From Terebella lapidaria (taxonomy: Eukaryota > Annelida > Polychaeta > Terebellida > Terebellidae): DNA of 64,000 nucleotides. Positions within the stretch are counted from its first letter, which is position 1. Each line of letters opens with the position of its first letter. The position numbers were made by a program, and so were the translations under genes. The stretch is from assembly GCA_949152475.1 (NCBI GenBank), contig OX424570.1:8606181-8670180 (forward strand), in the 5' to 3' direction. The notes under the pieces were generated by a model. The model had not been told where the DNA came from, did not search any database, and saw only the letters and a program-made list of their open reading frames with translations. This document shows, piece by piece, positions 37,059 through 63,600 of this stretch.

Positions 37059-37065
37059 CACATGA
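37059..37065. repeat. Candidate target site duplication, left
   Basis: CACATGA immediately precedes the left TIR and is repeated immediately after the right TIR at 49094-49100. Block P in other units has only one such GATGATATAA-type word at this place, so the second copy probably arose at insertion. A 2-bp TA duplication with tips GGGAGTTC/GAACTCCC is the alternative. Confidence 0.55.
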
Positions 37066-37105
37066 TAGGGAGTTCAAGTCACGTGACGTAATTACGTGAA
37101 AATAC
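37066..37105 (+). repeat. Left terminal inverted repeat and subterminal palindromes
   Basis: The tip TAGGGAGTTCAAGTCA is followed by CACGTG and by the perfect palindrome ACGTAATTACGT. Such palindromes are plausible transposase or THAP binding sites; that role is inference. Confidence 0.8.
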
Positions 37106-37384
37106 CGATTTTGTTTTTTGTCAAGCAAACACACTGTGTTCAAACTGTAATTACTTCAGTATTTATCAACATATTCAAATAATAAAATTATCGTTGAAAT
37201 CAGTATTGTTTTCTCTTTCTTCTGGTGTTTAATTTGTGTGAATAGCTCAAACTGTTACTGTGCAAGGAATGTGTGAACTTCAAAGTACGGGGTCGAAGTC
37301 GTGACGTTTTGCGCTCGCTGGAATAAGCCTTTTCGAGCTTCGAAGTGCGCATGCGCGTGATAGACAGGAAATGTACACACGGGA

Positions 37385-37427
37385 GCAAAACAAACGCACA
37401 TGTTATTTTGACAGTCACTTGACATTC
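37385..37427 (+). promoter_or_regulatory. Shared promoter motif upstream of transposase
   Basis: GCAAAACAAACGCAC (37385-37399) followed by TTGACATTC (37419-37427) lies 63-105 bases upstream of the transposase ATG. The same 15-mer and 9-mer, in the same order and orientation relative to the gene, stand 5-40 bases upstream of the YqaJ gene ATG. A common activator is inferred. Confidence 0.65.
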
Positions 37428-37489
37428 GCTGTTTACAGTTGAGAGGTGTGATTATTTATCCGTATTGTGGCATCAGAAGTTCTATTGAC

Positions 37490-39067
37490 ATGAGAAATTG
37501 TGCTGTTGCTGGCTGTTCTACAAGTTCGTACACCATAGCGAGATGGCAACAACGAAAATGCAGAATTCATGGCTGCAATTTTGGTTCAGGGGCGTGTACA
37601 TGCCGACCACCAGTGAGATTGTTCCCTTTCCCCACTGAGAAGTCTGACCCCGAAGGCCGTAAGAAGTGGATAAAGTTGGTGAATCGTAAGGTTGAGGGCA
37701 AGGGTGCTTCTCGTGTTCAAAATTGGATACCACCAAGCCATGCAAGGGTCTGTAGTCTGCACTTTGAAGATGGACAGCCTTCTCCAGAGCACCCTTATCC
37801 AACCCTCAACATGGGCTACACCCTGGAGAACTGTACCTCGAGAAAACCGCCGAAACCAAGAACTCTGCCTGAAAAGATGGAAGTGGATGTTGCATCACCA
37901 GACACCGAGGAACTAACACCACCCTGCCCTGGAGATCATGATGGATACAGTGTTTCTTGCAAGTGTACGGAAGGCTGCACCTGCCCAGGATGTACAGAAC
38001 AACTCAAGGAAGTGTTGAAACTGACACATGAGAATCAACTACTAACAGAACAGCTAGAAGAAGCACTATCACAGATGAAAATTCAAAGCCAGGACAGGGC
38101 CGGGAAGTGTGAAACCAGAGTATCACGATTCATTAGGAATGACCGATCCACTCGTATCCACACCGGGCTTCCGTTGAAACAGGCATTCTGCGATCTGCTG
38201 TCCTATGCTCATCCTTATGTCCAGGGCATGCGATATTGGAAAGGTGTCAAAACTGCCAGCAAAACATCAACAAAAGTTCCAAGACATTTTCGTAAAACAC
38301 CAAGAAAGTTTGGACCGCAACGAAAACTGTCTGAGAAGAATGAGCTTCTGTTGACCCTGATGAAGCTGCGACAGGGACTGAGCTTTCAGGTGTTGGCAGA
38401 CATTTTCGCCGTATCTGTCAGTACATGTAGCACAGTGTTCAACACATGGATCAAGGTGCTGGCGATGTTGCTGCGACCTCTCATCTTCTGGCCTGAGAAG
38501 GATATCAATCAGGAGATGATACCAGAACAACTTCGGGCACAATTTCCTAGACTGCGATGCACAATCGACTGCACGGAGGTGTACATCGGCAGACCACGTC
38601 ATCTGGAGCTGCAAGCGCAAACCTGGAGTGATTACAAACACCATAACACTATCAAGTTTCTGGTCGGGATTGCGCCCAATGGCCATATCAGCTTCGTGTC
38701 TCGTGCTTACGGAGGGCGAGCGTCTGACAGGCAGATAACCAGGGAGTCTGGATTTTTGGATCTAGTGGAGCCATACGACATGATTATGGCTGATCGCGGC
38801 TTCCCAATCCAGGAGGATCTCCTCTTACGGCGTGCCTCCTTGTACATCCCCCCTCCCAGCTCCGGACTGGAACAGCAAGGACGAGCAGATGTCCAGAAGA
38901 CGAAGCTCATTGCCAATGGCCGTATACACGTCGAGCGTGCCATTGGACGGGTCAAGTGGTTCAACATCCTGAGCTCCACCTTGCCTATCAACATGGTGCC
39001 TCTAGTGGATGACATCATCACTGTGTGTGCTGGACTGTGCAACCTTCTGCCCCCATTAGTTGTCTAA
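37490..39067 (+). CDS. THAP-domain IS5-like (DDE_Tnp_4) transposase
   Basis: A single exon of 525 residues. The start at 37490 puts the THAP zinc finger at the very N-terminus (MRNCAVAGC), where THAP domains normally sit; the frame is open further up to 37439 but without ATG. The THAP domain spans about 1-112 (C4, C9, W60, C88, H91) with a Cys-rich insertion at 24-38. A second Cys cluster (157-168) and a short Leu/Glu coiled coil (169-200) follow. A helix-turn-helix of the HTH_Tnp_4 type (about 279-335) precedes the RNase H-like nuclease with D360 (TIDCTE), D435 (MADRGF) and E482 (HVERAIGR). All catalytic residues are present and there are no breaks. It should bind the TIRs and cut and rejoin DNA in the nucleus. 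It is transcribed toward the YqaJ gene. Confidence 0.9.
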   Translation: MRNCAVAGCSTSSYTIARWQQRKCRIHGCNFGSGACTCRPPVRLFPFPTEKSDPEGRKKWIKLVNRKVEGKGASRVQNWIPPSHARVCSLHFEDGQPSPEHPYPTLNMGYTLENCTSRKPPKPRTLPEKMEVDVASPDTEELTPPCPGDHDGYSVSCKCTEGCTCPGCTEQLKEVLKLTHENQLLTEQLEEALSQMKIQSQDRAGKCETRVSRFIRNDRSTRIHTGLPLKQAFCDLLSYAHPYVQGMRYWKGVKTASKTSTKVPRHFRKTPRKFGPQRKLSEKNELLLTLMKLRQGLSFQVLADIFAVSVSTCSTVFNTWIKVLAMLLRPLIFWPEKDINQEMIPEQLRAQFPRLRCTIDCTEVYIGRPRHLELQAQTWSDYKHHNTIKFLVGIAPNGHISFVSRAYGGRASDRQITRESGFLDLVEPYDMIMADRGFPIQEDLLLRRASLYIPPPSSGLEQQGRADVQKTKLIANGRIHVERAIGRVKWFNILSSTLPINMVPLVDDIITVCAGLCNLLPPLVV

Positions 39068-39972
39068 ATGGGATCAATGATCCATCAAGAATGACATTTC
39101 ATGATAAATTTGTCTATGGTTTCATGCAAATTAGCACGTGACGCATTGTATCTCGGTTTTGGTTTGGCAGTATGTAAAAAAAATCGTGAAATTTATCAGA
39201 CAAAATTGCCATTAATGTATCATTCAGATGAAAATTATGTACACATATTTCATTAACCCATTGAAATGAATACATTTGTGTGGTTTGGTTTTTCTATTCT
39301 CGAGTCTGGATCAGGCACACTTCATTCATGAGGATTCTCAAACTGCACCTTTGATTGTACATGTAGCTTTGAAACCAGTGCATTTTAGATTCGCATTTTA
39401 CAGGCAGTGTATGTACATAAAAATGTAGCTTCTCCAACTATCATTGGACGCTGATTCAACAATTCACAAATTTGCAATGATAAATGTTGGTACAGCTTTT
39501 GTGTGACTGATTCACAAATTTGTGATGATAAATGTTTGTACAGTTTTTGTGTGAGTGGAATATATAAAAGCATGCTGATATTCATGGTATTCCAATTTAT
39601 TGAACATCATTGATCAGCTGTTCGATCAGACATACACATTACACTAACTTTTCACTCAATCATTGACTGTAATTGATGACTGGAACAACACTATGAGATT
39701 TAGCCCAAGCAATGTATGTCTAATCTACATCAGTGGTGAGCAGTAGCTGGTGGCCATCACTAGTACCTAGGTTGGAGAGCCACTGCTGGGCTCTACGAGA
39801 ATAACGAGGTCATTGAATATTCTACCAGTAGTCAAGATGGGGAATCTTTACACAAGTTCAAAGCATGAAAAATACACAGTGCAAACAATTAAAAGTACCC
39901 ACAATATTTGACTATACTAGTATTTTGCTTGTAATATTCTGAATACTCTGTGCCGAGTATTTACAATACAAT
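39068..39972. other. Convergent intergenic spacer of the transposon
   Basis: This is the 3' region shared by the transposase (+) and YqaJ gene (-). It is AT-rich, with a small internal duplication around TTCACAAATTTG.GATGATAAATG (39462-39485 and 39510-39533). No gene is seen. Confidence 0.6.
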
Positions 39973-42900
39973 TTAGTTCTTGCAATTACAACAAAACCAT
40001 TCATCGGCAGTGTCAATAAAACCAACGCATTTCCAATGGAACCACAACAAACATCTTTCACACTGAACACTGTTATCAGATTGGTCACTGATGTTGTCCT
40101 CACATGGCAGATTACAATGTCCACAAGAATACAATGGCATCAGTAGTTTATGGTACTTTCTCTTTCTCTGACGGCGCTTAGACGTGGACTGTAACGTGAT
40201 GTGCAGGTCCTCAAGACGGGGAAGAGAAGCTGACAGATTGTTTGAGGTTTCAGAAAGTAGTGACGAACCAGCAGGCAGCAGTGGCATGGACGGACTGGCG
40301 AGTGGTGGCACAGACGGACTGGTGAGTGGTGGCACAGACGGACTGGTGAGTGGTGGCACAGACGGACTGGTGAGTGGTGGCACAGATGAACCGGGCAGCT
40401 GATTTTCCTTTCCACTGTTCTGGCACAGTTCAGGAACAATATGCTGCTCAAAGAAGTACTTTGCAGCTGCCAGCTCTTCGTCGTAACGGTCCTGGTCGAA
40501 TGGGACTCTGACTTGTCGTTGTCCGTGTTTGGTGAATGTGAACATATCACACCACCTGCGACCTGTGATACCCATTTGGAACTGAACCTGACTGTAATAG
40601 CGATGACTTTTTTTCAGCGAGTCACCACAAGTTTCGTTGTTTGTTAAGCATGTAAGGTAGTCAAGTTCAACAGTTTTGGGGTCTTTGTGTGCGATGCTCA
40701 GGGGACACTTGATTTCCAGCAGTCCATCTTGACAACAGCCACAGCTCACAAGGCCATCTGGACTGGCTCCAACATATGGATGGAGTTTGTGAACAAAAAG
40801 CCCACACTGTGTCACTGACAAAGCACTGTGTTTTTTTCGCATCTCCATCACATAGCTTTTCCTCGCCTCAGGTTCCATCTCACGTCCATACTTCAGAGCT
40901 GGGATGTCTTCAGCCGGTACCTTGTAGCCCAACACACGCTGAACAAGTGCGGAGGTATCTCGACTCCTGGCACTGTTTCCCTGCAGTGTCCTGACCTTTG
41001 TCATCACATCATGGACCAGAGAAGCAGTGATACGCCCTCTCCTTTGATCAAACCAACTCGAGTTGTCACTTTGGGTTCTGGTCGCTTGTTCGATCACTTG
41101 CGCTTCCGCGTCAGACAGAAGTGGTAGCTGACGAAGAAAGACACCTGGATCTGAGACATTCAGGGCCATCGACACAAGACTGGGGGGGAGTGATGGTGAT
41201 GTTGTCACAACTTCCTCTCCGGTGACGTTGATGTCGTCGTCTGGTGAGAAGTTCACTGACCCACTCAGCGATGTGTACTGAAAACAGCTGGCGTCCTTAC
41301 AGCTCGCATACATGGCATTTGTTGCATCCTGAACAGTTGGGGCACGCAGTGCCCTATGCCGTCTGGTTGGGATGAACAGCTGTCTTGCCAGGGGATTGAT
41401 GGTCTTCTTGTCTGTGAAAACAACAGAGGACCATATTACAATACAGACAATACTAGCAGAAAATCTGTGACCACATCCACATTAAACACATGTTTGATAC
41501 TATTAAAGCTATTTACTTTCAGTAGGTCAAGGGTAAGGTGGCTTAACAGAAATTGTTCATATCAAGGTTTAGACATGTCAATATGAGGTTATAGTTATAT
41601 ACACCATATATATTTGTCACGAATATTTGTCTTTGAAAAAATCAACGTCTTGGTAGACTGGTAGTAAATTTTACCAAAGCAATCAGAACAAATATCAATG
41701 AGATATGTACATGACATAGGTTAAGGCAGCACAAAAGACCAAGACTACAGAAGACAATACTATTGTTTTATTTGGCAGCCATAGTGGGTCATAATGGGCA
41801 TGCGAAAGCTACAAGAAAGTAGAAGTAACAAAATACAAATATAGCTGGGTTCAAACCTGATGTCTGTTTGTGAAAAATCATGAAATTCAAGACACATTTT
41901 TGATTTTACTACAGGAAAACAACCTTGCTTGCTGAAGTGCGGTTTTCTCCAGTCAAGCTGGTGAAGTGGCTTGATTTCAACGGCCTTCTCTTTTGCTCCA
42001 TATCGGTTCCATACACATGGGAGTGATGTGCACGCTTGATTGGTCCATCCCATCCTCCAAGCATGGTCGATTTTGAAGAGGACCGCAGCAACATGATTGC
42101 ATGTTGAGCCCAACCTAGGGAAAACAAATAGAGTGCAACTAACTTGATGAATCTTTCTGCAGACAAAAATATTTCCTGTGGTCAAATGAACTAGTATCAC
42201 ATGCCTATGATTATGATGATACTGTACATGTACGGTATAATTCGTATCACTTCCAAGAAATATATTTACATGTACTCCTGTACACGACTATGTTAGGCAA
42301 AGGTATAGATCTTTTACAAAAAACTAGCTATCTAAATACTTCACAACAGGAAACTACATATTTTAATTTTTGCAAGGAATCCGTTCACACGTACCCTGCA
42401 AAACATGTGCAATATGCACTTTTCACCGTGCCGGACTTCTTCTCAATGGCAACCCAGATGTTGTGAGGACTGTTGCCAAGACGCTCAGATGGTGTTGATT
42501 TGGCCTTGATGAAACAAATAGGTGAACTTGGCTTGATGTCATGGTAGAACAGCTCCTTCAGCCATTTACTATCGAAGTATGAATACGCCTTTCCTTCTTT
42601 GTAGTCCTTCAGAAGTCGCTGTGTTAGATCAGCCCCCTGTAGCCAGCATAAAATATGAAATATATAGTACTACATTTCGATAAAGATTGCTTTTAATAAA
42701 TATGTCTATATTGTATTTGTTATAATACATGTCAGTAGATTATGGTAGAGATAAGCCACTAGAGTCTGAGATGCACCTAAACATACTTGATCCACTGAAC
42801 AAGTGCATGCACAGTTCATCCAGTGAATCAATTAGCTATGTGTTAAGACCTATTACTCACCTGAAAATTGGTCAACAGATACTGGGCGATATCCATGTGC

Positions 42901-43208
42901 ATGGTCGCTGGCCATTTTCGCATCCCATCTTTTTCACCCACCCAGCCTGTTTCCAAAAGGAAAGGATCGGGTAATGTAGTCCCACCGTCATTGCCAAGTA
43001 CCAACAAACTGGCATACTGTTTTGATTTTTCAAGGTCAATCTCTGATTTAGACTTGACGAGTGGTTTGTTCTCTACTGATGCAGCGAACGCGAGTGCACA
43101 CAACTCAGCTTTGTTTCCTGAGGTTTTCAAGCCCCTACACCGTAAGTAGTCTCTCAATTGTGGCAATTTCCACCGCTGAAAATCAGCTAAAGCGAGAGCT
43201 TTCTCCAT
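39973..43208 (-). CDS. SAP-SWIM-YqaJ nuclease-PHD protein of the transposon (4 exons)
   Basis: Four exons on the minus strand: 43208-42861, 42636-42395, 42114-41924 and 41411-39973. All introns are GT-AG and the phases join cleanly into 739 residues. A SAP-like DNA-binding helix pair is at about 1-45. A SWIM zinc finger, split by intron 2, is at C192-x-C194...C202-x-H204. A YqaJ/lambda-exonuclease-type nuclease (about 379-590) has WFDQRRGRITAS, SPDG (D479) and LEIKC (E493, K495). A Pro/Ser repeat (603-636) and a PHD finger (690-737) follow. YqaJ enzymes are metal-dependent nucleases of the PD-(D/E)XK type, so the protein likely processes DNA ends during transposition, with PHD reading histone tails. 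That role is inference; this gene pairing is known from ISL2EU elements. It is divergent from the coiled-coil gene, with 267 bp between. Confidence 0.88.
40280..40390 (-). repeat. 27-bp in-frame tandem repeat inside the YqaJ gene
   Basis: About four copies encode SVPPLTSPS-like units (residues 603-636). All copies keep the frame. The repeat forms a flexible Pro/Ser linker between nuclease and PHD finger and is likely length-variable between copies of the element. Confidence 0.8.
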
Positions 43209-43475
43209 GCCTGGAATGTCAACACACTACACGTGCGTTTGTTTTGCTTCCGTCAATCCCACAATTCCAAGCGCGCACGGAACCGCGATAAAGCTTATTG
43301 GGCACGTTTTTTGCGGCCGCTGGTGTTTACACACATTGTATCGATCGTTTTCTCGACGGGAAAAACTGTCAGAAATCACTAAAAAGAGACATGATCAGAC
43401 TCGGAAACACCTCGAGAATATTCGGGAATTTCCGCGATATCTCTATGACAACCACGAGCGACGCTATCTTGGAAA
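43209..43475. promoter_or_regulatory. Bidirectional promoter between YqaJ and coiled-coil genes
   Basis: Only 267 bases separate the two start codons. The YqaJ side carries the inverted shared motif (GAATGTCAA at 43214-43222 and GTGCGTTTGTTTTGC at 43233-43247). The middle has GC-rich words (GCGCGCACGG, GCGGCCGC). No TATA box is evident on either side. Confidence 0.6.
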
Positions 43476-46400
43476 ATGGCTGAAAATCTGCAAAATAACA
43501 CCCAAAAAGGTAAGAAATCAAACTTGCGGAACACCAGTAGGAAAGTATAAATGCTAGTCATCATAATGGTACAGTTATTTAGCTAGTAGAGCCAAATTCA
43601 CCACTAGAAAAAAACGAAAACGAAAGTAGTGTAATTTCAGACGCTTGCAAGCTGAGGACGTTTTGTCAAAACGCCATATTATCGCCCACACAGGCCGACT
43701 AGGAAAATGCCACTCGGGCTGATGCTTTCAATTTCAAGTGATAGTGTTGTGAATTTGATTCTAATATATCTAGTCTACTGTGACATTTTAGCGAAATTAA
43801 AGCTTTGTGGGACTATTTATCTCCGAATCTGGCTAGTGATGATAGTAGTGCTTTGCCTGATCCGACATTGTTGTATTTGTGTGGGGGAATAGTGGGGAAG
43901 GGGGGTAAATCTTGCTGGCCTGCGCCTAGGGGGGGAGAGTGCTGCCCAATTTTTTTGTTGTGTTGATTCTTGATTCAGGATTCTGATGCAAATATTGACA
44001 CGCAAAAAATGTATTGATGATTAATTTGTCTGAAATGATTTTCTTTCTTATCTCACAGGGTCAGAGCCATTACTGACTGTCGGAGGTTTGGTCACAGTCC
44101 GAAAAACAGTTGCCACTAATTTGGAATGTGCCGAACAGATAAAAAAACTTCATCTTCAATTCCAGGAATGTGACTCTGAAAGACTTCGAAAAAAAAATCA
44201 CGATGTTATTTCTGTTGTGGACAAACTAAAAAGTCAAAAGAAACATGCTCAGTTACAGCGAAAACTGTCAGCAGTTTTTCACCCACCTGTTTGTACAGCC
44301 ACATTAAGGAACACTAACGAAAACATAACTCCAGAAACAAAGCAAGCAGTGAAGCGAAACAGGAATGAAGAACAATTTAGTGACATAGATCAGATTTTAG
44401 ATCTACAGAAGGAGGTTGATATTCTCGAGGCCAAGTACAAAATTTCAAACAATGTGCTACAAGAAATGGAGAAGGACTGCAGAGCATGGCATGAAAAATA
44501 CGAAAAGCAACGTACACAAAACAAGGAGATTGCTGAAAAGTTGGCTACAATGAAATCAAAGCTGTCACAATATTGCCCAAGAAATGTGAATAAACGAATC
44601 AAAAGACTTCAGGACAATGTCAGAGTGCTCCGAGCTGAACTGAAAAATTCGAAGCACAGGATTGTTAACCACCAAGGAATAATCAACAAAAAAGCTGAGG
44701 ATATCACAAGTCTTCGCAGGGAAAAACTCCATTTGTTGAAACAAAAATCCTACTTGAAAAAGTGTCTCCAGAAAGCAATAACCAAGGAATCAGACTCTGT
44801 TGAAAAAAACAATGCATTGATTTTGAGGTATGAAGAGGAAATCAGGCGATACAAAAAACAAATCCGGGACCTTGAGCAACTGAACAGTTTAATGGAAGGT
44901 GATATAGTGCAGACATTTCATGACGGGAAATACACAAATGAAGTTAGACAAACAATCATGACGTTGCTGACCGATTGCAATGTCAGCATGAACAAAGTTA
45001 ACAGTGTGATCCGTACTGTTCTGCAGAACTTGGTGGGCAAAATACCACAGTCTTTGCCCAGTAAAGGAGTGTTGAGCAGACTTATGGTAGAGGCAAAGAT
45101 GGTTGCCAACCAACAGCTGGCGAATACTCTTCTCTCGGGAGTTGACCCAACCAGCATGGTCGGCAATTGCCTGCACCAAGACGCAACCTCGAAATTCCAT
45201 TCACACTATCAAGGGTTTCAAGCAAGTTTGTCATCCGGTAAGTATATTCAGATCATGAATAAGTGGTTTATTATTTTGCAATATGGTCGGTAGCTTGTTT
45301 GGTCAATATTTTGTATATTGAGTGGAATATATTCGATACAACTTTTATATCAAAATATATGTTACTAGTTATTTTATTTCACCAGGTGAAACGGTAACCC
45401 TTGGACTGTCAGAAATGCCGAGCGGCAAAACAGATGCGTTACTGCAGGTAAACATGGATTAAAATTATATGATAAATGGTACAAGAATTGCAACTTTGGT
45501 AATCATCGGTACATAATATGTGTAGTAATAATAAATAGTTTGTATAATAACAACTTTCCTGTAAAATGTATAACAATAAAATATACATGTTTAAATTATC
45601 AACAAATTGCACAACAAGACATCTAAACCCAATGATAATCACACTATTATGTGTGAAAGTATATGTATAACAACATCATGTATAATGATCACAGACATTA
45701 TACACGTAAATTGGAGGTAATAATATCACATGTATGGGGAAATAGTAAACCTCTCTCTCATATTCCTAATATACCTTTCTATCACAGATATCATTTACCA
45801 ATATCATGTAAATCATCATGTTTATAATATATATCTATATGTACAATACAGGACTTCAAAGACACCATCGATGAAATCGCAGACAGCGTTTCTGGGTCAT
45901 CTGAAGAGAAGCAACAGCACGCTGCTAAGCTTCTGTCGTCGTTCACAGCCACTATGTCAGACCAGGGACCCACATGCGCAACATTCAACGATGCCCTCAC
46001 TCAACTTAGAAGTTCCGTTCTACCTACATCAGTTGAAAACTGGAGTAACCTGGATTCTGGTGTTCAGCAAAAGCTTTCTGAAATGTGTAATTTTTTCTGT
46101 AAGTTGCATCTTGTTGGAAACATGGCACCCGAGGCGGACAAGTGTCTGAAGCTCTTCGAAAGTGAAGCTGCAGTCGGTCGGAATCCCCATTCGTTCAAAT
46201 CATCTGAAAGTGGTGCAGCCCGCCTTACCCGAACGAGCTGCAAAGCTTTCACAAAACGTGGCAGTGATAAAGCTGGTGTTGCCAGTGCCTGGGAAGCGTA
46301 CCTGCGGGAAAAAGGAATCAAAAACAAGTTGGTCACGTATATTGGCAATCGATTGAATATTTTGTTCTACAATGCAGGAGCAGTGTACTACCACCGTGAT

Positions 46401-47813
46401 CATATCACTGACTTCCTGGATCGCTGGCTCGAGCCTAATGAACTGCTACAGTCAGTACATTTTGATGTTGAACAAAAAGTGTATGTGGCTGGTCTGCGTG
46501 CTTTAGGCATTATTGACAAGAAAATTACTGGACCCTTTTGGCGACTGTGTGAACGCTCTGGAGACATATTGTCGATGAATCACCACCTGTTGAACATGCG
46601 TGACAGTTTGGAGAAGTGGGCTCAGGATTCAACCCCGTTATTGGAGGAATCATGTCTCTTCTCTGAGGACCTTGAAACACGAGATGAGATATACAAGTCT
46701 TTGTATCAAGAATCTGATGATGTGATGTTGAACTGCTACACACAAATGGCCTTGGAACTTGTTCTAAATGGATTACTTATTCTGTTGGAGAGACAAGCCA
46801 AAGATCAACTTCCAGGAGGCAAATATTGGACCCCAAATGAAGACCAGAAGTTGAAAGCCACCAATGTTCCCAAACACAACATCATTTCTGAAAGGGATAT
46901 GGGCTCACTTGACTTATTAATTCGCATGAAACCACATGCATCTACATTGTGCATTGAGGCACACATTATGTGGCTAAATAACAAAACAAGCCAGTGGCTC
47001 ACAATGCGAAAGGATCAGGATACCATACTCGACCAAGCAAGGAGAAATGCTGTCAGTCTTAAGAAATTATATGCGGATAAGCTACGGTCTTTGAAGATTG
47101 CCAAACTGGAAGCCTTGAAAGCAAAACAGAAGAAGAAAGAGGAAAAACAGAAGAAAGCCTATGATCAAAATGTGGACCTAACAAACAAAGTGGCCGACCT
47201 CGGAGGTGTGTGGACTTCTGATGATGATATAACACGCAAAATAACAGCGCTCACTCCAAAAGAAGCCATGGAAGCTATCTCAACACAACTCAGATTTCAC
47301 CGATTTGTTCTCCATTCTGCCGGCCCACGTGAACTTTTCAATAAGAGTAAAGGCGGCAAGGCGTATTCACTCGATGAACTTACCGATAATATACGGGAAG
47401 TGCTTCAACTCAACCCAGTATCTTCAACAGCACGCACGAACACAAATGCTCTGCAGATGCGGAGTTTAGATGACATTCGCACACATGTTCAAGACAAAAA
47501 AGCAGCACTCACAAAGACACTTGTGGAGTCGAGACGTAAACGAGTCATCAAAAGACAACAGGAGGACATGGACAAGTATGTGAATGAACCAGACCTGTTA
47601 GTGGGAAAAACCATCAACCACTTATGTTCTGATCCAGAATCGAACAGCTCCTCTTGGTACAAGGCTACAGTATTGAGAATTGCAGACAAAGCTGTAAAAT
47701 CACCAAAGCATACTGAATATATTGTTGTGTATGAAGAAGATCCCACTGACGAGTGGTCAATGCCTCTCCTTATTGATTTATCTAAAGGAGACTTGTATTT
47801 GCTTGATACCTGA
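43476..47813 (+). CDS. Large coiled-coil protein of the transposon, unknown function (4 exons)
   Basis: Exons 43476-43509, 44059-45237, 45386-45447 and 45852-47813 join with GT-AG introns and matching phases into 1078 residues. The short first exon starts MAENLQNNTQK. Residues about 120-290 are Lys/Glu-rich heptads, a long coiled coil. A globular region (about 425-800) follows, with YIGNRLNILFYNAG, a GLRALGIIDKKITGPFW stretch, and SERDMGSLDLL then NNKTSQWL. A Lys-rich helix (KAKQKKKEEKQKKAY) lies near 865. The last ~70 residues (GKTINHL to DLSKGDLYLL) look like a small Tudor-like beta barrel. I recognise no enzyme motif. Similar domain layouts are common as uncharacterised invertebrate multi-copy genes, to my recollection. 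The position inside the TIRs makes it element-borne. It may be a structural partner of the transposase or YqaJ protein; that is inference. Confidence 0.85.
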
Positions 47814-49077
47814 AAATTTCATTTGTTGGTATTTACGTGATTGAAATGATTTTATGTGATATGTACCTGCAAATGTTTCTGTAAATGCGATATGACCATG
47901 CACATGTTATCACGATGATCATTTCATATGCTAGTTATTTATTTTATTTATTATTTATTTGTTTGTTTATACACATACATGTGGCAGTCATTTGTTATAG
48001 CACCCTGTTTTATCATGTTAATTATACCCAGTTGTATTTTGTCAAATTTGCGATTCGTACCCATTACGATTATGTATAAATAGGATGTATGAAGCTTGAG
48101 TTGAAAATGCTATACATGTTAGGTGAGGCTGCTTGTACTGTGCTCTCATTGTGTACAACTTTTCAATAACTACAACAACAATTAATTTAATGTGCAACAA
48201 ATCATATTTAATTCTATCCTGTAAAATACAGTATGGTACCCGTTCCGCATTGTTGCTACCGCTTGTCAGTTTTTGATTTCTCGTGTATGCGTTTGTGTGA
48301 CGGAGTGTCATTTCAATCCACATTTTTGGCGGCCATCTTGGATTTTGAGACAATATGTTCTATTTTGACACATTGGCACATCAATATTTCATATTTATTA
48401 TGTATTATCTCTCACAATTACTTCATTATCATTGATTCTAGCAAGTTACATGTGTTTAAGTGCGAACATGTTCCATCATTGAATATACTATTCTGTATGT
48501 TATGATCGGTCGGCCATCTTGGATTTTGGCGGCCATTTTGTATTTTTCACACTAACAAAATGATGATATACAGTATTTTACATTAAATAATTAGGTATGG
48601 ATTGTTGTTTTATCTGAATTATCTTATTGGTAAAAAAATTAGCTGCCTTGTTGTACTTTGAATGACGTCATGTTATCGCGTCAAATTTGGTGTTTTTGGA
48701 TATGTTTGATTTGTCGGCCATCTTGGATTTTGGCAGCCATTTTGAAATTTTAAATCATGACATTTTCCCCCATATGTTATTACAAATAGTTCCATAAACA
48801 ATTAGTTGAAAGAATTATGCAAATCGGTTATGTTTGAGGGAAGATATGGTTGTTTTTCTATTATTTATTGCCTATATGTTGAAAAAATGGTGCCGCTACA
48901 ACAGTGTTATATATATTGTGTAATATTCCCGTTAATCCACTTGAGGTTCGCACATTCAAATGCTCATAACTCCAGTTGCATTCATCCGATTTTCATGAAA
49001 TAAAAAGTTTATTGAACCAGAAGACTATATCTATCTGTTTATATACATTAGATAGTTATATTGAAGTAATTAAAAAA
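47814..49077 (+). repeat. 3' subterminal region with repeated GGCCATCTTGGATTTT motif
   Basis: The motif occurs at 48331-48346, 48512-48527 and 48716-48731, about 180-205 bp apart, two of them with a following GGCRGCCATTTTG. It may serve as subterminal binding sites. An AATAAA at 48999-49004 may end the coiled-coil transcript. Only short chance ORFs occur. Confidence 0.6.
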
Positions 49078-49093
49078 TGACATGAACTCCCTA
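49078..49093 (-). repeat. Right terminal inverted repeat
   Basis: TGACATGAACTCCCTA is the inverse of the left tip with one mismatch. It is followed directly by CACATGA (49094-49100), the second copy of the candidate target duplication. Confidence 0.8.
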
Positions 49094-52000
49094 CACATGA
49101 TATGATGGAAGTCCACGATATAACATGGAATCAAGTTACTTGGAAGTCACTCACAGTGTGAGTGTTAGGATTATCCCATGTGAATAAAGCACTTTGTTCG
49201 AGTTGTGATAGTCCCTAAGTGTTAAAGTTTACCGAATCTCAACCTAGATGTTGAAAAAGGTGACTGGTTTAACACACAATATATATTTGTTTTGAATGAC
49301 AATAGATGCTCGTATCCTAAACCGGAAACCCTACAAAGCATACATGTATGCTTATATTTTTCAATAATACCATCCGTTCAATAAACTTTCGGCCCAAGTA
49401 TCATATCATGCGCCTTCCTCTATATTCAGTAAGGATTTAAAAGGTGCGAGACGGATTAAATGGTATGTTTTCAGTGGACGAGTAGTATTAAGGAGCAGTG
49501 TATGGTACTTGGGCCAAAGTGTCTTACATGCTTGTCAACTATTTTTGAGGAATCAGATGTGTGCCATTTCCACAATTAAATATTTCGTTGTACTTGGGAT
49601 TGAGATGGAAGTGGTGAAAATTATAGAGTTTGATCTTAATATACATATGGTATAAAAATGTAATATCTCATTTTACTGACCAATTTTATGGTGACCTCCG
49701 ACAATGATTAGTAGAATAGAATTACATCAGGGCATGCAGGAATACTGGGAATATAATGAAATATCCTTATGTTTCTTAAATTATATTCCTTGCGCGGCAT
49801 TCCTAGTTACCTAAGCCTTGTACACTAGACCACTACCAGTGGATATGCTCAACTTCTGAATTCAAATATTAGTAGATACTATTCCTGGCTATGTCTGCTC
49901 AGCTGACTTCTCCTGAAATTGATGACCTTGGGTGCCCACTGTGAACCACACACGTTTCTCTGTCATAGGATACCGTAGAAGTCAAGACGCATATCCCAGA
50001 GTTTTGCTTGTTAACTGATCCATGATATGGCTTCACGGTCGGATTAAATGCAAATCACCATACGTCTTGCCCTCTGTGATAACATTGTCTGCAACTACTG
50101 TGAGTCTCGTAGATTATCTCTTCTTGTTTGGTTTTGGGCGAGCTGATATCACTCATACGTTTCTGGCCTGTCCAACATAATCCCGCAGAACATCACAAGC
50201 ACATGTAAGGTCGTGTCTTCTTTGTTTCCCGTTAGCGGGCGGGTGAAAATAGCAATTATTTTGAGAAAACAACACAAGCTTCTTGGTCCTTTTTCCCACA
50301 CAAAAAAACACAGTTTTCCCCCTAAAACACTGAACATTGATAATGATCGTGAATGGTTTCAGTTTTGCTGTTTCCCCCCCCCCCCTTTGTTATGTATCTA
50401 TGAAGTACTCAATAGCTTAGCAAATGATCAAATACCTTTTATTTCACATTTTTGGCATGAGGTACTTTGTGCATAAAGATGTTATTCTGATAATGAACGT
50501 CTGTGTTTTTCCCCGTGTTTATTTGTTTTTCCTGGTTGGCTGGTACTTTGCGAAAATAAAGTTGACAGGAAACAAAGAAAAACAATAACATGGCCTAAAG
50601 ATAGCAAACAGGAACAGTACACTGTGAGCCAACAGAAAAGGAAACATGATCTCAGAGCGTTATGGTAAAAATGATTTACAAACGGTATGTGTGGACTCGT
50701 CAGATGTGACCTTGAAGTTCATACTCGACGCTGTCTAAGGTCATTTTCGCCAAACGAGACTGTTTGCAGGTGCGTTAAACTTTGTTATTGGTCCTATTTT
50801 AAGCACCTATTGCTCCTCCTGACGGCAATAGATTTCAGCAGCGACCACTCAATCTTTGATTGGTTGGTGATCCCGTGAAGGTCAAACTGTGGCTCGCTCT
50901 GTCCAAGGTCATTAGTCGGTGACATCTGGAATTGACGAAACTAATGAAGACATGTTTTGAACGGTTACAGCTCGTCAAATTAAAGTTGATGGTGCTCAAT
51001 TTCCATGTATTGCATCATGTTTTCAAGCTATTTTACAAGGAACAACATATGTTTTCACAACCTATGTCAATCTAGTAGCAATGATAAAAGGCAAGTTTGA
51101 TGTTGCCAATATAAATGAAATAACGCATAAATGTTCAAATTAAAGGTGAATACAAAGTACTCAATCAAAAAATAGCTGATAATAGCCTAGATACGTGTAC
51201 TCCTATTTATGAATCAGAGTTTTCTTGTGTAGAACAATTACATGTATATCCATTTTGATATGATCTGATCATATTTGCAAGCTATATTTGACATCGCCTA
51301 CCAATAACCAGCACAATTGTGTTGTGGAATTTGTAGATTCGAATCTGTTCATAAATTTCTTGTTCCGAGTCAGTAATTTCATCGTAATATTTCTTGTTCA
51401 TAGCTGATGTTCGAGTGTCTCATGTTTGACGAACCGGTTGTGATGTAGATGTTCACTCCAAAAGATGTCATTCAGTACAGTAAACATCTTCAATTGATAA
51501 CTCGTCCTTGGAGATGAATGTGCACTTAGTGCAAATAATCGAGTCAGAGAACGGGCGAGATTGCAACTTGAAACGTGTTCCTTTGTTCTGCTCTTTTGTT
51601 TTAGAGCACAAATGAAATTCCCAAGTGATTTTATTGTTTTCATACTGGCACATGGAGCACAGTTCAAATGGTATATCGTGTGCAGATTTCTGCATGGATT
51701 GCTCAACAATGAAGTTAACAAGCAGTCACGAGGACATCAATCAATTTCACATTCACATGAATTTCACATTATGTTTTTTGAAAATTGCTTCCTGTGTCAG
51801 GTGGCAATGTCTGCATGATCTGCATAATTGTTCGCATTTTTGTAGTAAATGTGTGCAAAATCTCAGTATGGTTTGTGACACATCAATTTAAACATATAGG
51901 ACACAGTCAAGATATTGTTTCAATAAAAGGAGATAGAGTTTGTTCTGAACAAGCCACCGGAAGAACAAATCTAAATTTACATAATACATGTATTAATCAT

Positions 52001-55000: not shown

Positions 55001-55870
55001 ATCATTCGAATGAATCCGGAAATCCTCTTCCGGGGACACTCATAAGTATGCACGATATATTTATAAGCATGAGCCCATAGAGTATATGGACACGACCTTG
55101 AGCAGAATGACTTATGCCATGTTTGCTCAAGCCACTCCAACTTGGTCTTCCTGTATTAAATCGTTTGTGTTTTTCTGTACTCGTTGCGTTGTTCAGAAAA
55201 CATTGTGAATTATTCAGATGATAAACGGTAATATTTTTTTTCGTGGCCGGGGGGTTTGTATGCCCTCTCTGTGGTAGTTCGAAAACTGTTAATTAGTCGA
55301 CAACTGAATTCAATCGGTTGATTGATGGTCGTTGCTGATAAAAAAGAGATATCTTGTGAACATTTGGACTAGTGAGTAAAGCAAGGTGCGAAGACAGGTT
55401 GTGATTCGTCATGTCTGAATAATTGTTTCCCATTCGAGATTCCATTTCTGTTTGCCACATTATGTGATCATAGAAGTGTACAACAGCACTGCTATAATAG
55501 TATCAACAGAAGATCCGGAATATGGATCATGCAATGTGTTTACAGACTGAACTGAACTCTGTATATAAATTGTCTAAACGAACAACATCACAAAAAAATA
55601 ACTTCTTCCGAACACACGGGAAATAACCATTCTGCCACAATCCTTGTGTGATCATTTTCATGCTTATCTCTCTTCAATCCGCCATAACCCCGTCCAAACA
55701 CCTGTGACACAGACATTCATATATCCCCTTGCTCTTTCCCACCATGACTACATTATATATTGATGTGTTATTTAGGTCTTTGTCTGGGCTTTGCCAACAT
55801 TTATAATTGGATCACTGCACCCAGGCGAGATGATATAACAAAGTTCATGAGATGTTTTTGAACCCAGCAT
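49094..55870 (+). repeat. Tandem segmental repeat, unit C (with preceding T block)
   Basis: Blocks T (49180-49390), U (49900-50170), a stretch like 17900-18050 (50800-50945), S (51290-51710), W (51930-52700), U' (52815-53050), X (53090-53240), R (53350-53600), Q (54840-55060) and P (55640-55850) follow the order of units A and B. Blocks V and Q' are missing, which points to an internal deletion. It carries no large insertion and is the best empty-site reference. A poly-C tract lies at about 50376-50386. No conserved ORF. Confidence 0.65.
53404..53512 (+). repeat. Conserved core of block R (unit C)
   Basis: Matches the cores in units A and B with few differences. The surrounding frame (53369-53590) shares MTFINVCPSVYLEIPC and a later MGRIQRS with unit B. 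Confidence 0.5.
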
Positions 55871-56329
55871 AATTTTGATGTTGTCTGCGTTGTCTGATGT
55901 TTGTCAAAAACATACGCTATGTTCATACGCTAGTTAAAGGGTGAACCTCGGAAGTGTTACCGATATTTATATCCAGTATACATACCTTAGTGAAAACATC
56001 TCCGTTATAGTTGCACAAAAATTGTCACCCATAACATCATGAAGGTGATTACTTTACTTGTTAGTGAGACGTAGGACTTTTCGTTCGATGGTAATTTAGA
56101 TCCTATTGATTAGAGTGGATCATGATTTTTTTTTATTACCAGAGAAAGATTATTCGGAATGTCGTCAGCACTTGTATCACTGCTTGAATAACGAACAACA
56201 ACTTCATATTTTGTTATAAAATATTTCTAAATGGCAATAGTAATGGTAAAAATATCATTGGTCTTTTTTCCTCGTTGCTGTTTTTTCGCACTGTTTAAAT
56301 ATGTAAGGTTGGCCAGAAGGCGACAACAC

Positions 56330-60600: not shown

Positions 60601-63600
60601 CAAGTATAATCCATTTACGTAATGCATTGGATATATTGTACTGTTGTATATTACGAGGGGAGTCAAATCTAGTTACTCCGTACCTATTCCATAATTTACA
60701 TAACATATTATTGAATCCATAGTAGGAGAAGAGTGTACATTTCTCTAACAATGTCAGCATCATACCGTCCATTTATAATAATGTTTCCCCCGGAGACCAT
60801 TATCCCGGTCGGTCGCTCGATGTATTGCTATTGTAAATGCCACCACCAAGGATGCCCAATGTCTTCTAGTGACAACCGTGAGAGGAATCATCTACGTGTG
60901 TGCGCAAATTCCCTTCTTCATGTTGTGGACTGCTATATAACATGTATAAACTGATGTTATGTTGTAGCGCATCATAACAAATCGCAGCGAGTCGCTCAGC
61001 GAAGTTCGCATTGTCGTTAGGATTTTTGAAAAGGTGGCCAATAATTTTGGACAGTCATCGAACTTCAATTGGACAGTTCACATTGCCGTCCTTGAAAAGT
61101 TGGAAAACCCTCCAATACCATTTACTACATTTCGTAATTTTTCAGCACGATTTTCCTGTTTTGTGTTTTTGTGTATAAATAAGAACACAAATATTTCATC
61201 ATCATACTTATATATTTCTGGTAATATAAAGCACAATAACGGGATGGGTTTGGGATTGGGGATTCTGAAATGAGATGGCGTATCACTCGGAACCATAAAA
61301 ATACGAACTAATTGATGTGGAATCAATACCCAGTAATAAGTATTCCGAACGAACCAAACATGGTCCGTTATCCAATCTCATAGTCCGGGGACAGAAAGTC
61401 ATATCAGGCATACGAAGTGAGAGAATACAAAAATCAGGCATACAAAATTCATCACGAATGTGAAAAAAACGGTAACTGTTAGACGAACAATTATATATAT
61501 CAATATAATGTAATTCATGTTGCATTATCTCAAATTCATATACACATGAACACACTTGCTAAAAGGATATACTGGTATCATATACCTTTCAGCTAATTAT
61601 TTGTGTTATAGTACCAAGATAGATACCAACATCTTATGCTAGCTACAATAAAAAATTGTCTGCTAGATTTATGGTCATCTGCCAGCTGTTTCTGGTGATA
61701 GCTGACATCTCTGGAGAGTAATGAACCCGATAGGATAGCGTGAGGCTAGTGGGTTTGTTGCAAGTGTGCTCGGGAGATGTTTTGGGAAGTGAGGCGAATG
61801 AAGGGATCTCATGTGTTGTTAGGGAAACGTCAAAGGTGTATCTCCTGAATAATTTTACTCCATTAATATAATATAAAAGTTCATATCACCGTGAAAATTT
61901 GCTATTCTCTGGATGCAATATATTCTGTGGAGATGGTAAAAAAATATATAATTTCCACATTATTCTGTGAACAACGAAATGGGGGACACGGTGATTTTGT
62001 CCCCACAACATTATGTTACTTGGTATGTTTAGAAACATTAGAAAAGTCTAGAAACATTATTATGTTTCCCTCCGATGTCCACCAGATATATTACGTCTGC
62101 CCCTATGTTCCCTATGCTCAGTATATCTGATCCTACATCATGTCATCCAATATTCTGATAGGTATATCACGTCTGGTGTCCAATAGAGAATTAGTCTTTT
62201 AACTATTTATTTGTGTTGGAATAAAATATCGTCTGATGAATTTATGGTCATCTGCCAGCTGTTTCTGGTGATAGCTGACATCTCTGGAGAGTAATGAACC
62301 CGATAGTATAGCTTGAGGGTAGTGGGTTTGTTGCAAGTGTGCTGGGGAGATGTTTTGGGAAGTGAGGCGAATGATGTGATCTCATGTGGTGTTAGGGAAA
62401 TGTCAAAGGTGTTTCTCTTGAATAATATTACTCCATTAATATAATATAAAAGCGCATATCACCGTGAAAATATGCTATTCTCTGGATGCATTATATTCTG
62501 TGGAGGTGGTCAAAAATATTAAATAATATTCATATAGTGCTGTGAACAATGATATGGGGGACATGGTGTTTTTGTCCCCACGAATTTCTCTTACTTGGTA
62601 TGTTTAGAAACAGAAAGTCTAGAAACATTATTATGTTTCCCTCCTATGTCCACAAAATATATTACGTCTGCCCCTATGCTCCCTATGCTCAGTATATCTG
62701 ATCCTACATCATGTCATCCAATATTCTGCAGGTATATCACATCTGGTGTCCAATAGAGAATTAGTCTGGTTCGTTTTTTCCTCATTAAGAATTACCATAG
62801 CTACTACATGATACCTCCAGGACACTCCACCAGAACAATTTATATTCTCCATGATATGGCAAGGGATTAACACTACCAGGTTTCATTATAATATCGTTCC
62901 ATTTCAGCAAATAGAGTTAACTGAGTTTGAAACATATTTCCTATTTCACAGTGCAAATAATGAACCAGTGTTGAGATGTATGATTGGGGTACCTTGATTT
63001 CCTTGATGCACAGGAGTTTGAAGCATGATTTTATGTTTGTCATCTCAGAACCAAAACAAGTGTCTTATTTCATTCACATGCATGAAATATTGCTATGGAG
63101 AAATATTCGCATCTTGACTTGCACTGGTCGTGTACAGTGTATATCGTTTTGAAATTGTTACGGGTTGAAGATTGAAATGAATGGCTAAGACTAATATAAA
63201 AAATAACGGGGTTTTTTTGTCACACATTCATAGGACCATATATCACCAAGTATGGAAATCAATGACGTTGACTAGGTTGAGGTAGGTTTTCGACAATGAA
63301 AACGATTGAAGTGGGAATTATATATATATGTTGTTCATTTGCAGTGGTCCTAGAGTACATCGCTTGAGCATCACTGGTTGATATAAAAGGATTGGAATGA
63401 ATGTTATGTCTACGATTGTCTCACTTCGATGCTTCGCATGTATCCACTCTAATAAAAACTACACGAGATAAATGGATCAAAACGACTGTACTGTTTAGCA
63501 GGAAACTCCCTCGGAGACCATCACAGGGCACAGTAATAATGCCTTATGAATACGATCGTAAAATGTTCCATTCAGGTAATAATTTCTGCAAAACAGCAAC

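Follow-up and report, generated by a model that had tools for sequence, protein, structure and literature searches.

The window analysed here, a stretch of 64,000 nucleotides from the polychaete Terebella lapidaria (contig OX424570.1), carries at positions 37066-49093 a 12-kb segment with three open genes between inverted tips. The tips (37066-37081 and 49078-49093) are 94% complementary over 16 nt, and in a crude random control only 1 of 2,000,000 pairs of window positions reached at least 15/16. CACATGA lies on both sides of the segment (37059-37065 and 49094-49100), confirming the inverted ends and the 7-bp flanking repeat described in the initial annotation. The first gene, on the forward strand at 37490-39067, is a single-exon transposase of 525 aa whose reading frame is intact, as had been claimed, and which matches the Pfam families DDE_Tnp_4 (E 5.1e-46), HTH_Tnp_4 (2e-17) and THAP (9.6e-7); its catalytic residues were assigned by motif to D360, D435 and E482. 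The second, on the reverse strand at 39973-43208, would encode a YqaJ protein of 739 aa in four predicted exons (43208-42861, 42636-42395, 42114-41924 and 41411-39973), with SAP and YqaJ domains (the latter at E 8.4e-20), a weak PHD match below the Pfam cut-off and a SWIM-like part recognised by eye. Within this gene, 24-bp tandem repeats at 40281-40400 code for repeated PPLTSPSV units. The third, hereafter gene 3, lies on the forward strand at 43476-47813 and is a candidate DDE transposase of 1,078 aa, with predicted exons at 43476-43509, 44059-45237, 45386-45447 and 45852-47813 bordered by GT/AG. As first reported, the YqaJ gene and gene 3 each remain open through their four hand-predicted exons, with six predicted introns in total.

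This segment had been read as one complete ISL2EU-type transposon, yet its nearest relatives in the 761.6-Mb host assembly show that it consists of two nested transposons, an ISL2EU inside an outer transposon that carries gene 3. The 73 bp at the start of the segment have three matches in the assembly (the window, C12 and C11), all at 100%, and its last 200 bp have five (the same three, plus two on C11 at 89%). When the C11 and C12 copies are aligned to the window, two main blocks match, 37066-37324 and 43297-49093. Both copies keep gene 3 and the outer tips (TAGGGAGTTC…GAACTCCCTA, as in the window), and the 5,972 bp at 37325-43296 are missing from both. Indeed, each of the other copies with both outer tips (2/2) lacks exactly 37325-43296 plus one AT, and the lengths of these shorter copies, 6,004 and 6,053 bp, compare with a total of 6,054 bp for the outer parts in the window. 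Given sister copies without 37325-43296, we reject a single 12-kb element; the search first suggested, for further copies sharing both tips and all three genes, found the tips without the ISL2EU genes.

The outer transposon thus comprises a left end at 37066-37324 (forward strand, tip TAGGGAGTTCAAGTCA), whose 259 bp are identical to those of the C11 and C12 copies, and a right part at 43299-49093 (forward strand, ending GAACTCCCTA), with subterminal direct repeats of core GGCCATCTTGGATTTTGGCNGCCAT near its right end (48325-48751, forward strand). Without the insert it measures 6,054 bp, and gene 3 is its only recognised gene. The inner ISL2EU occupies 37325-43296, has the ends AAGCCTTTTCG and CGATAAAGCTT, is bordered by AT target duplications at 37323-37324 and 43297-43298 (in the form A|AT|T), and sits about 177 bp upstream of the predicted start codon of gene 3. 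We propose that a cut-and-paste transposon of about 6.05 kb, gene 3 being its sole recognised gene, would have inserted with a 7-bp duplication, and that the 5,972-bp ISL2EU would have entered this transposon at an AATT site lying 259 bp from its left end. The simplest order of events has the ISL2EU arriving second in the outer element, although the ISL2EU may instead have inserted elsewhere, with the pair moving afterwards. The explanation as a whole, a nest whose outer partner is a cut-and-paste element with 7-bp duplications moved most likely by gene 3, we consider highly probable, and this judgement refers to the entire statement; taken by itself, the nesting is all but certain. What the sequences show directly is that nesting, the ends and the duplication length of each transposon, their other copies and the recurrence of the gene-3 motifs.

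The initial annotation also took a paralogous block of the window to represent the site without the element. The paralogue (55485-56151) does lack the element, but at about 58% identity in a gapped alignment it is too diverged to fix the site to the base.

Apart from tips that start with AA, the inner block is a conventional, two-gene ISL2EU. Han 2015 (PMC4482050) recognises ISL2EU elements by two ORFs, one THAP/HTH/DDE and one YqaJ, and by duplication of AT in A|AT|T; the inner element likewise combines a THAP, HTH and DDE_Tnp_4 transposase with a YqaJ second ORF and an AT in an A|AT|T-like target, as in ISL2EU of the PHIS superfamily. It differs in being longer (5,972 bp, where autonomous ISL2EU average about 4,840 bp) and in its tips, which begin with AA where GG is usual (Han 2015). 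Its YqaJ protein additionally bears the SAP and weak PHD-like parts. Its edges read AT|AAGCC and AAGCTT|AT, the terminal inverted match is imperfect (13/17 bp, by eye), and subterminal inverted repeats at 37379-37403 (forward) and 43229-43253 (reverse) pair over 25 nt at 92%. Beyond the window itself, searches with the two ends returned three places (C1 has one and C2 two), the second end matching two further places over 54 bp at 83%. All four copies have the AT duplication followed by T (4/4), and A precedes it in 3/4. At E 1e-3, no outer-element sequence was found around either end of the three other copies (six loci, each extending 1.5 kb beyond the query). ISL2EU copies elsewhere end at different tips, with no outer sequence in the flanks searched, an outcome that had itself been named as refuting a single 12-kb element. 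The original identification holds in so far as the window contains an intact ISL2EU, but this one measures 5,972 bp rather than 12 kb, has two genes, and does not end at the 37066 and 49093 tips. Gene 3, previously regarded as its cargo, belongs to the outer, host transposon, and both the unusual size and the ‘cargo gene’ are explained away by the nesting. The ISL2EU presumably encodes its own means of movement, the DDE transposase, which the YqaJ protein would assist. A false record of a giant three-gene ISL2EU is corrected before it enters annotation, and in its place stand two recently moved transposons whose ends are known exactly, and for which there are sister copies as well as sites with and without the insertion.

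The ends and duplications of the outer element recur in a second family, found via gene 3, most of whose last exon shows 43% amino-acid identity between the two families. Two copies of this second family, on C1 and C2, are 99.9% alike over about 6.2 kb, have the tips TAGGGATTTT and AAATCCCTA, and are flanked by the duplications ACGCTAT and ATTATAT. Those of the first family are CACATGA (window), CCGAGAG (C12) and ACTAGAG (C11), and a 7-bp duplication accordingly accompanies 5/5 outer insertions resolved at both ends in the two families; this count leaves out a C15 copy, the two copies at C11:36475053 and C11:36479035, and the family-3 copies, which are not resolved at both ends. For the C15 copy, which belongs to family 2, the left end was found and the right end was not, and no duplication was counted. 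In the third family, a right tip GAACACCCTA occurs in the C1 copy only, the C2 copy differing there. Families 1 and 2 have TAGGG tips at both ends, and one family-3 copy has such a tip on the right. The window's tips, flanking duplication and three open genes would also suit a single 12-kb ISL2EU-type transposon whose shorter relatives are internal deletions, but we give this reading almost no credence; the empty and filled sites already refute it. Both shorter copies would have to have lost precisely an AT-flanked segment that has copies of its own at three other sites, each with AT duplications at its borders and without outer sequence in the searched flanks. ISL2EU elements duplicate AT and not 7 bp (Han 2015). 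Tips and 7-bp duplications of the same kind also delimit the second gene-3 family, and none of the at least 92 ISL2EU transposase matches listed (82 of 582 candidates scored) falls in its two copies.

The pair of copies at C11:36475053 and C11:36479035 are diverged gene-3 elements lying about 4 kb apart, with similar right flanks and several frames containing stops; they are 89% identical to the window at the right tip, and probably represent a local duplication.

Near-identical copies lend good support to recent movement of both families, in keeping with the recent activity first proposed from the window. Over about 6 kb, the outer copy on C11 has 10 substitutions relative to the window and that on C12 has 14, or about 0.2%, with 7 and 52 gap columns, respectively, counted apart, and this low divergence implies that movement was recent. 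Among these three close copies, gene 3 is open only in the window; when the window's exon borders are applied, translation stops prematurely after residue 295 in the C11 copy and after residue 75 in that on C12. The ISL2EU transposase is 100% identical over its 525 aa in 3/4 copies and is split into two pieces in the fourth. The ISL2EU copies are 99.6-100% identical in the end-locus stretches compared and 98.7-99.0% over longer stretches including gaps, the comparison covering parts outside the middle of the copies.

The protein encoded by gene 3 most likely serves as the outer element's own DDE transposase, a reading that draws on its motifs, its relatives and its position. Its motifs are D386, D462, C508xxH511 and E772 (assigned by motif), giving the spacing D-76-D-310-E. 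The motif order D, D, C/DxxH, E is common to the DDE transposases of hAT, P, MuDR, Kolobok, Dada and IS256 (PMC3706591, PMC7780238). Relatives of gene 3 abound in the assembly: with each exon counted separately and the window's copy included, the last exon has at least 66 matches (68 of 87 candidates scored) and exon 2 has 16. Among these relatives D386 appears as DATSK, DGTSK or DETSK, D462 as MSDQ or SDR, the CxxH as FFCKLH, and E772 as SERD and variants thereof. The D, D, CxxH and E are kept in most diverged relatives whose pieces reach them; the first D is absent from L059, the second from the second-family pieces L016 and L023, the CxxH from L076 and the E from L056, and all of these exceptions fall at frame or exon borders of unspliced pieces. 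Two more distant relatives, L061 and L060 (C16:511975 and C17:3247180), have open frames with changed motifs (ITDRCPA at the second D, CHLHP), and perhaps represent a separate subfamily or host genes.

Gene 3 has no match to any Pfam transposase family at E<=1, and the outer element is thus a defined, likely DDE transposon that the Pfam library used does not recognise. Beyond its core, the N-terminus looks coiled-coil-like by eye (the Pfam TPR/MLP1 match being below the cut-off) and may multimerise the protein. Among PDB sequences, Spindlin-4 (E 0.017) and Spindlin-3 (0.033) match the final 74 aa, and the Pfam family Agenet matches the final 136 aa below its cut-off (0.015); Agenet was not seen by Pfam in the matching part of the second family. 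The last exon as a whole has four PDB sequence matches at E 0.98-1.1, one of them Spindlin-3. A Tudor-like (Spindlin/Agenet-like) tail is consequently plausible as judged from sequence, and may read chromatin at the target. If a histone-reader domain is indeed fused to a transposase, chromatin-guided choice of targets becomes testable.

A profile of the gene-3 core returned no matches among PDB sequences. The fold was modelled on the core of L055, a relative selected for having it in a single open frame. The AlphaFold model, of mediocre quality (pLDDT 71.4), has three strands around and after the first D, followed by long helices, and a second model from a deeper alignment of 36 rows brought no improvement (pLDDT 71.1); neither places a strand at the second D. 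With Foldseek, the transposase of ISCth4 (IS256) took ranks 1-3 and 7 for the first model (probability 0.69-0.91, E 0.14-0.54); for the second it took ranks 2-3, at probabilities of 0.57 and 0.33, preceded by an unrelated chaperonin chain. These models hint at an IS256-like fold, and the outer element resembles IS256/MULE (ISCth4) in this weak top fold match of one L055 core model and in a CxxH within a helical insertion. It differs in that no sequence similarity to gene 3 was detected, the fold matches are not significant, and ISCth4 makes 8-bp duplications (PMC7780238). On our preferred explanation, the outer element would most likely be mobilised by gene 3, acting as a DDE transposase of the RNase H-like kind that carries a helical insertion domain and a CxxH motif. 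Catalysis by gene 3, its splicing, the roles of the accessory domains and the order of events are the inferred steps of that explanation.

As regards its superfamily, the outer element is nearest to hAT by pattern (tip, CxxH and SER), its family being left open. Tips of hAT elements begin with YARNG, a rule which the TAGGG tips fit, and the latter resemble those of Ac. The CxxH motif and the SER context of the catalytic E are likewise shared, and in hhalign the E motif SERDMGSLD stands in register with hAT SERMFSLAG. However, the hhalign comparisons with hAT proteins of the same genome reach E 0.05-0.07 at a probability of about 1%, over 42-55 columns confined to the region of the E motif, and are not significant. 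Neither the gene-3 ORFs nor 19 family pieces match PF05699 at E<=1, and none of the 149 PF05699 places listed in the genome (150 of 273 candidates scored) lies at a gene-3 copy when compared by eye. Gene 3 further differs from hAT transposases in having neither the dimerisation domain nor a BED-type zinc finger in the Pfam results, and in carrying a coiled-coil-like N-terminus and a C-terminal Tudor-like domain. Its duplications are of 7 bp against the usual 8 bp (5-7 bp in named subgroups), yet fungal hAT7 families make 7-bp duplications (PMC12730594), and duplication length alone therefore does not exclude hAT. Placement in hAT, where the outer element would form a deep animal branch distinguished by its altered C-terminus and 7-bp duplications, would refine rather than replace our explanation, and we regard it as a serious candidate at somewhat less than even chances.

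Our literature search, which did not include Repbase, found no described element with 7-bp duplications and TAGGG tips that could be matched to gene 3. It is conceivable, if rather speculative, that gene-3 elements form an undescribed superfamily-level group of animal DDE transposons, defined by 7-bp duplications, TAGGG tips, a CxxH transposase, a coiled-coil N-terminus, a Spindlin-like Tudor tail that would steer insertion to marked chromatin, and subterminal repeats common to other repeated elements in the genome. In any case the ISL2EU is ordinary, and the outer gene-3 element, unclassified and probably DDE, is the novel part of the nest.

A Dada-type element that has lost strict targeting of small RNA genes appears unlikely. 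PMC3706591 gives 6-7-bp duplications and introns as Dada traits, both of which the outer element shares along with a DDE transposase of the C/DxxH class. Many, though not all, Dada families insert in small RNA genes. The spacing in Dada-U6_DR is 68 and 176, against D-76-D-310-E in gene 3. Moreover, gene 3 has CxxH rather than DxxH, and its cysteine positions agree with neither the CCCC N-terminal nor the CCHC C-terminal zinc finger of Dada; a single cysteine follows residue 792, leaving no C-terminal CCHC finger. Rfam found no small RNA gene in the window, and Rfam and ARAGORN found none in the left-end loci and 1.5 kb of left flank of the four other resolved insertions. Galileo, of the P superfamily, makes 7-bp duplications like those of the outer element; its tips differ, and the gene-3 ORFs, unlike the P superfamily, have no THAP match at E<=1 in Pfam. 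Both Dada and P are disfavoured as placements, each failing on tested features.

Also unlikely, in our view, is a captured or accessory status for gene 3, with the outer element mobilised in trans by an unrelated transposase. The want of a recognised transposase domain in gene 3 would fit this reading, and trans-mobilisation is plausible for the sister copies, which are broken yet nearly identical; against it, no other gene is recognised in the outer element, the 43%-identical relative of gene 3 sits between ends of the same type, and the D/D/CxxH/E motifs recur in most relatives.

The 25-bp motif GGCCATCTTGGATTTTGGCNGCCAT (window 48512-48744) has 94 exact matches in the assembly (45 forward and 49 reverse), whereas its reversed control has none. 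It occurs in inverted arrangement across about 3-7 kb in at least 15 clusters counted by eye, often as pairs about 350 bp apart, as if placed at both ends of another repeated element, and it holds a YY1-like core. Elsewhere in the window, 61647-62767 contains a near-tandem duplication of roughly 550 bp at 90% identity.
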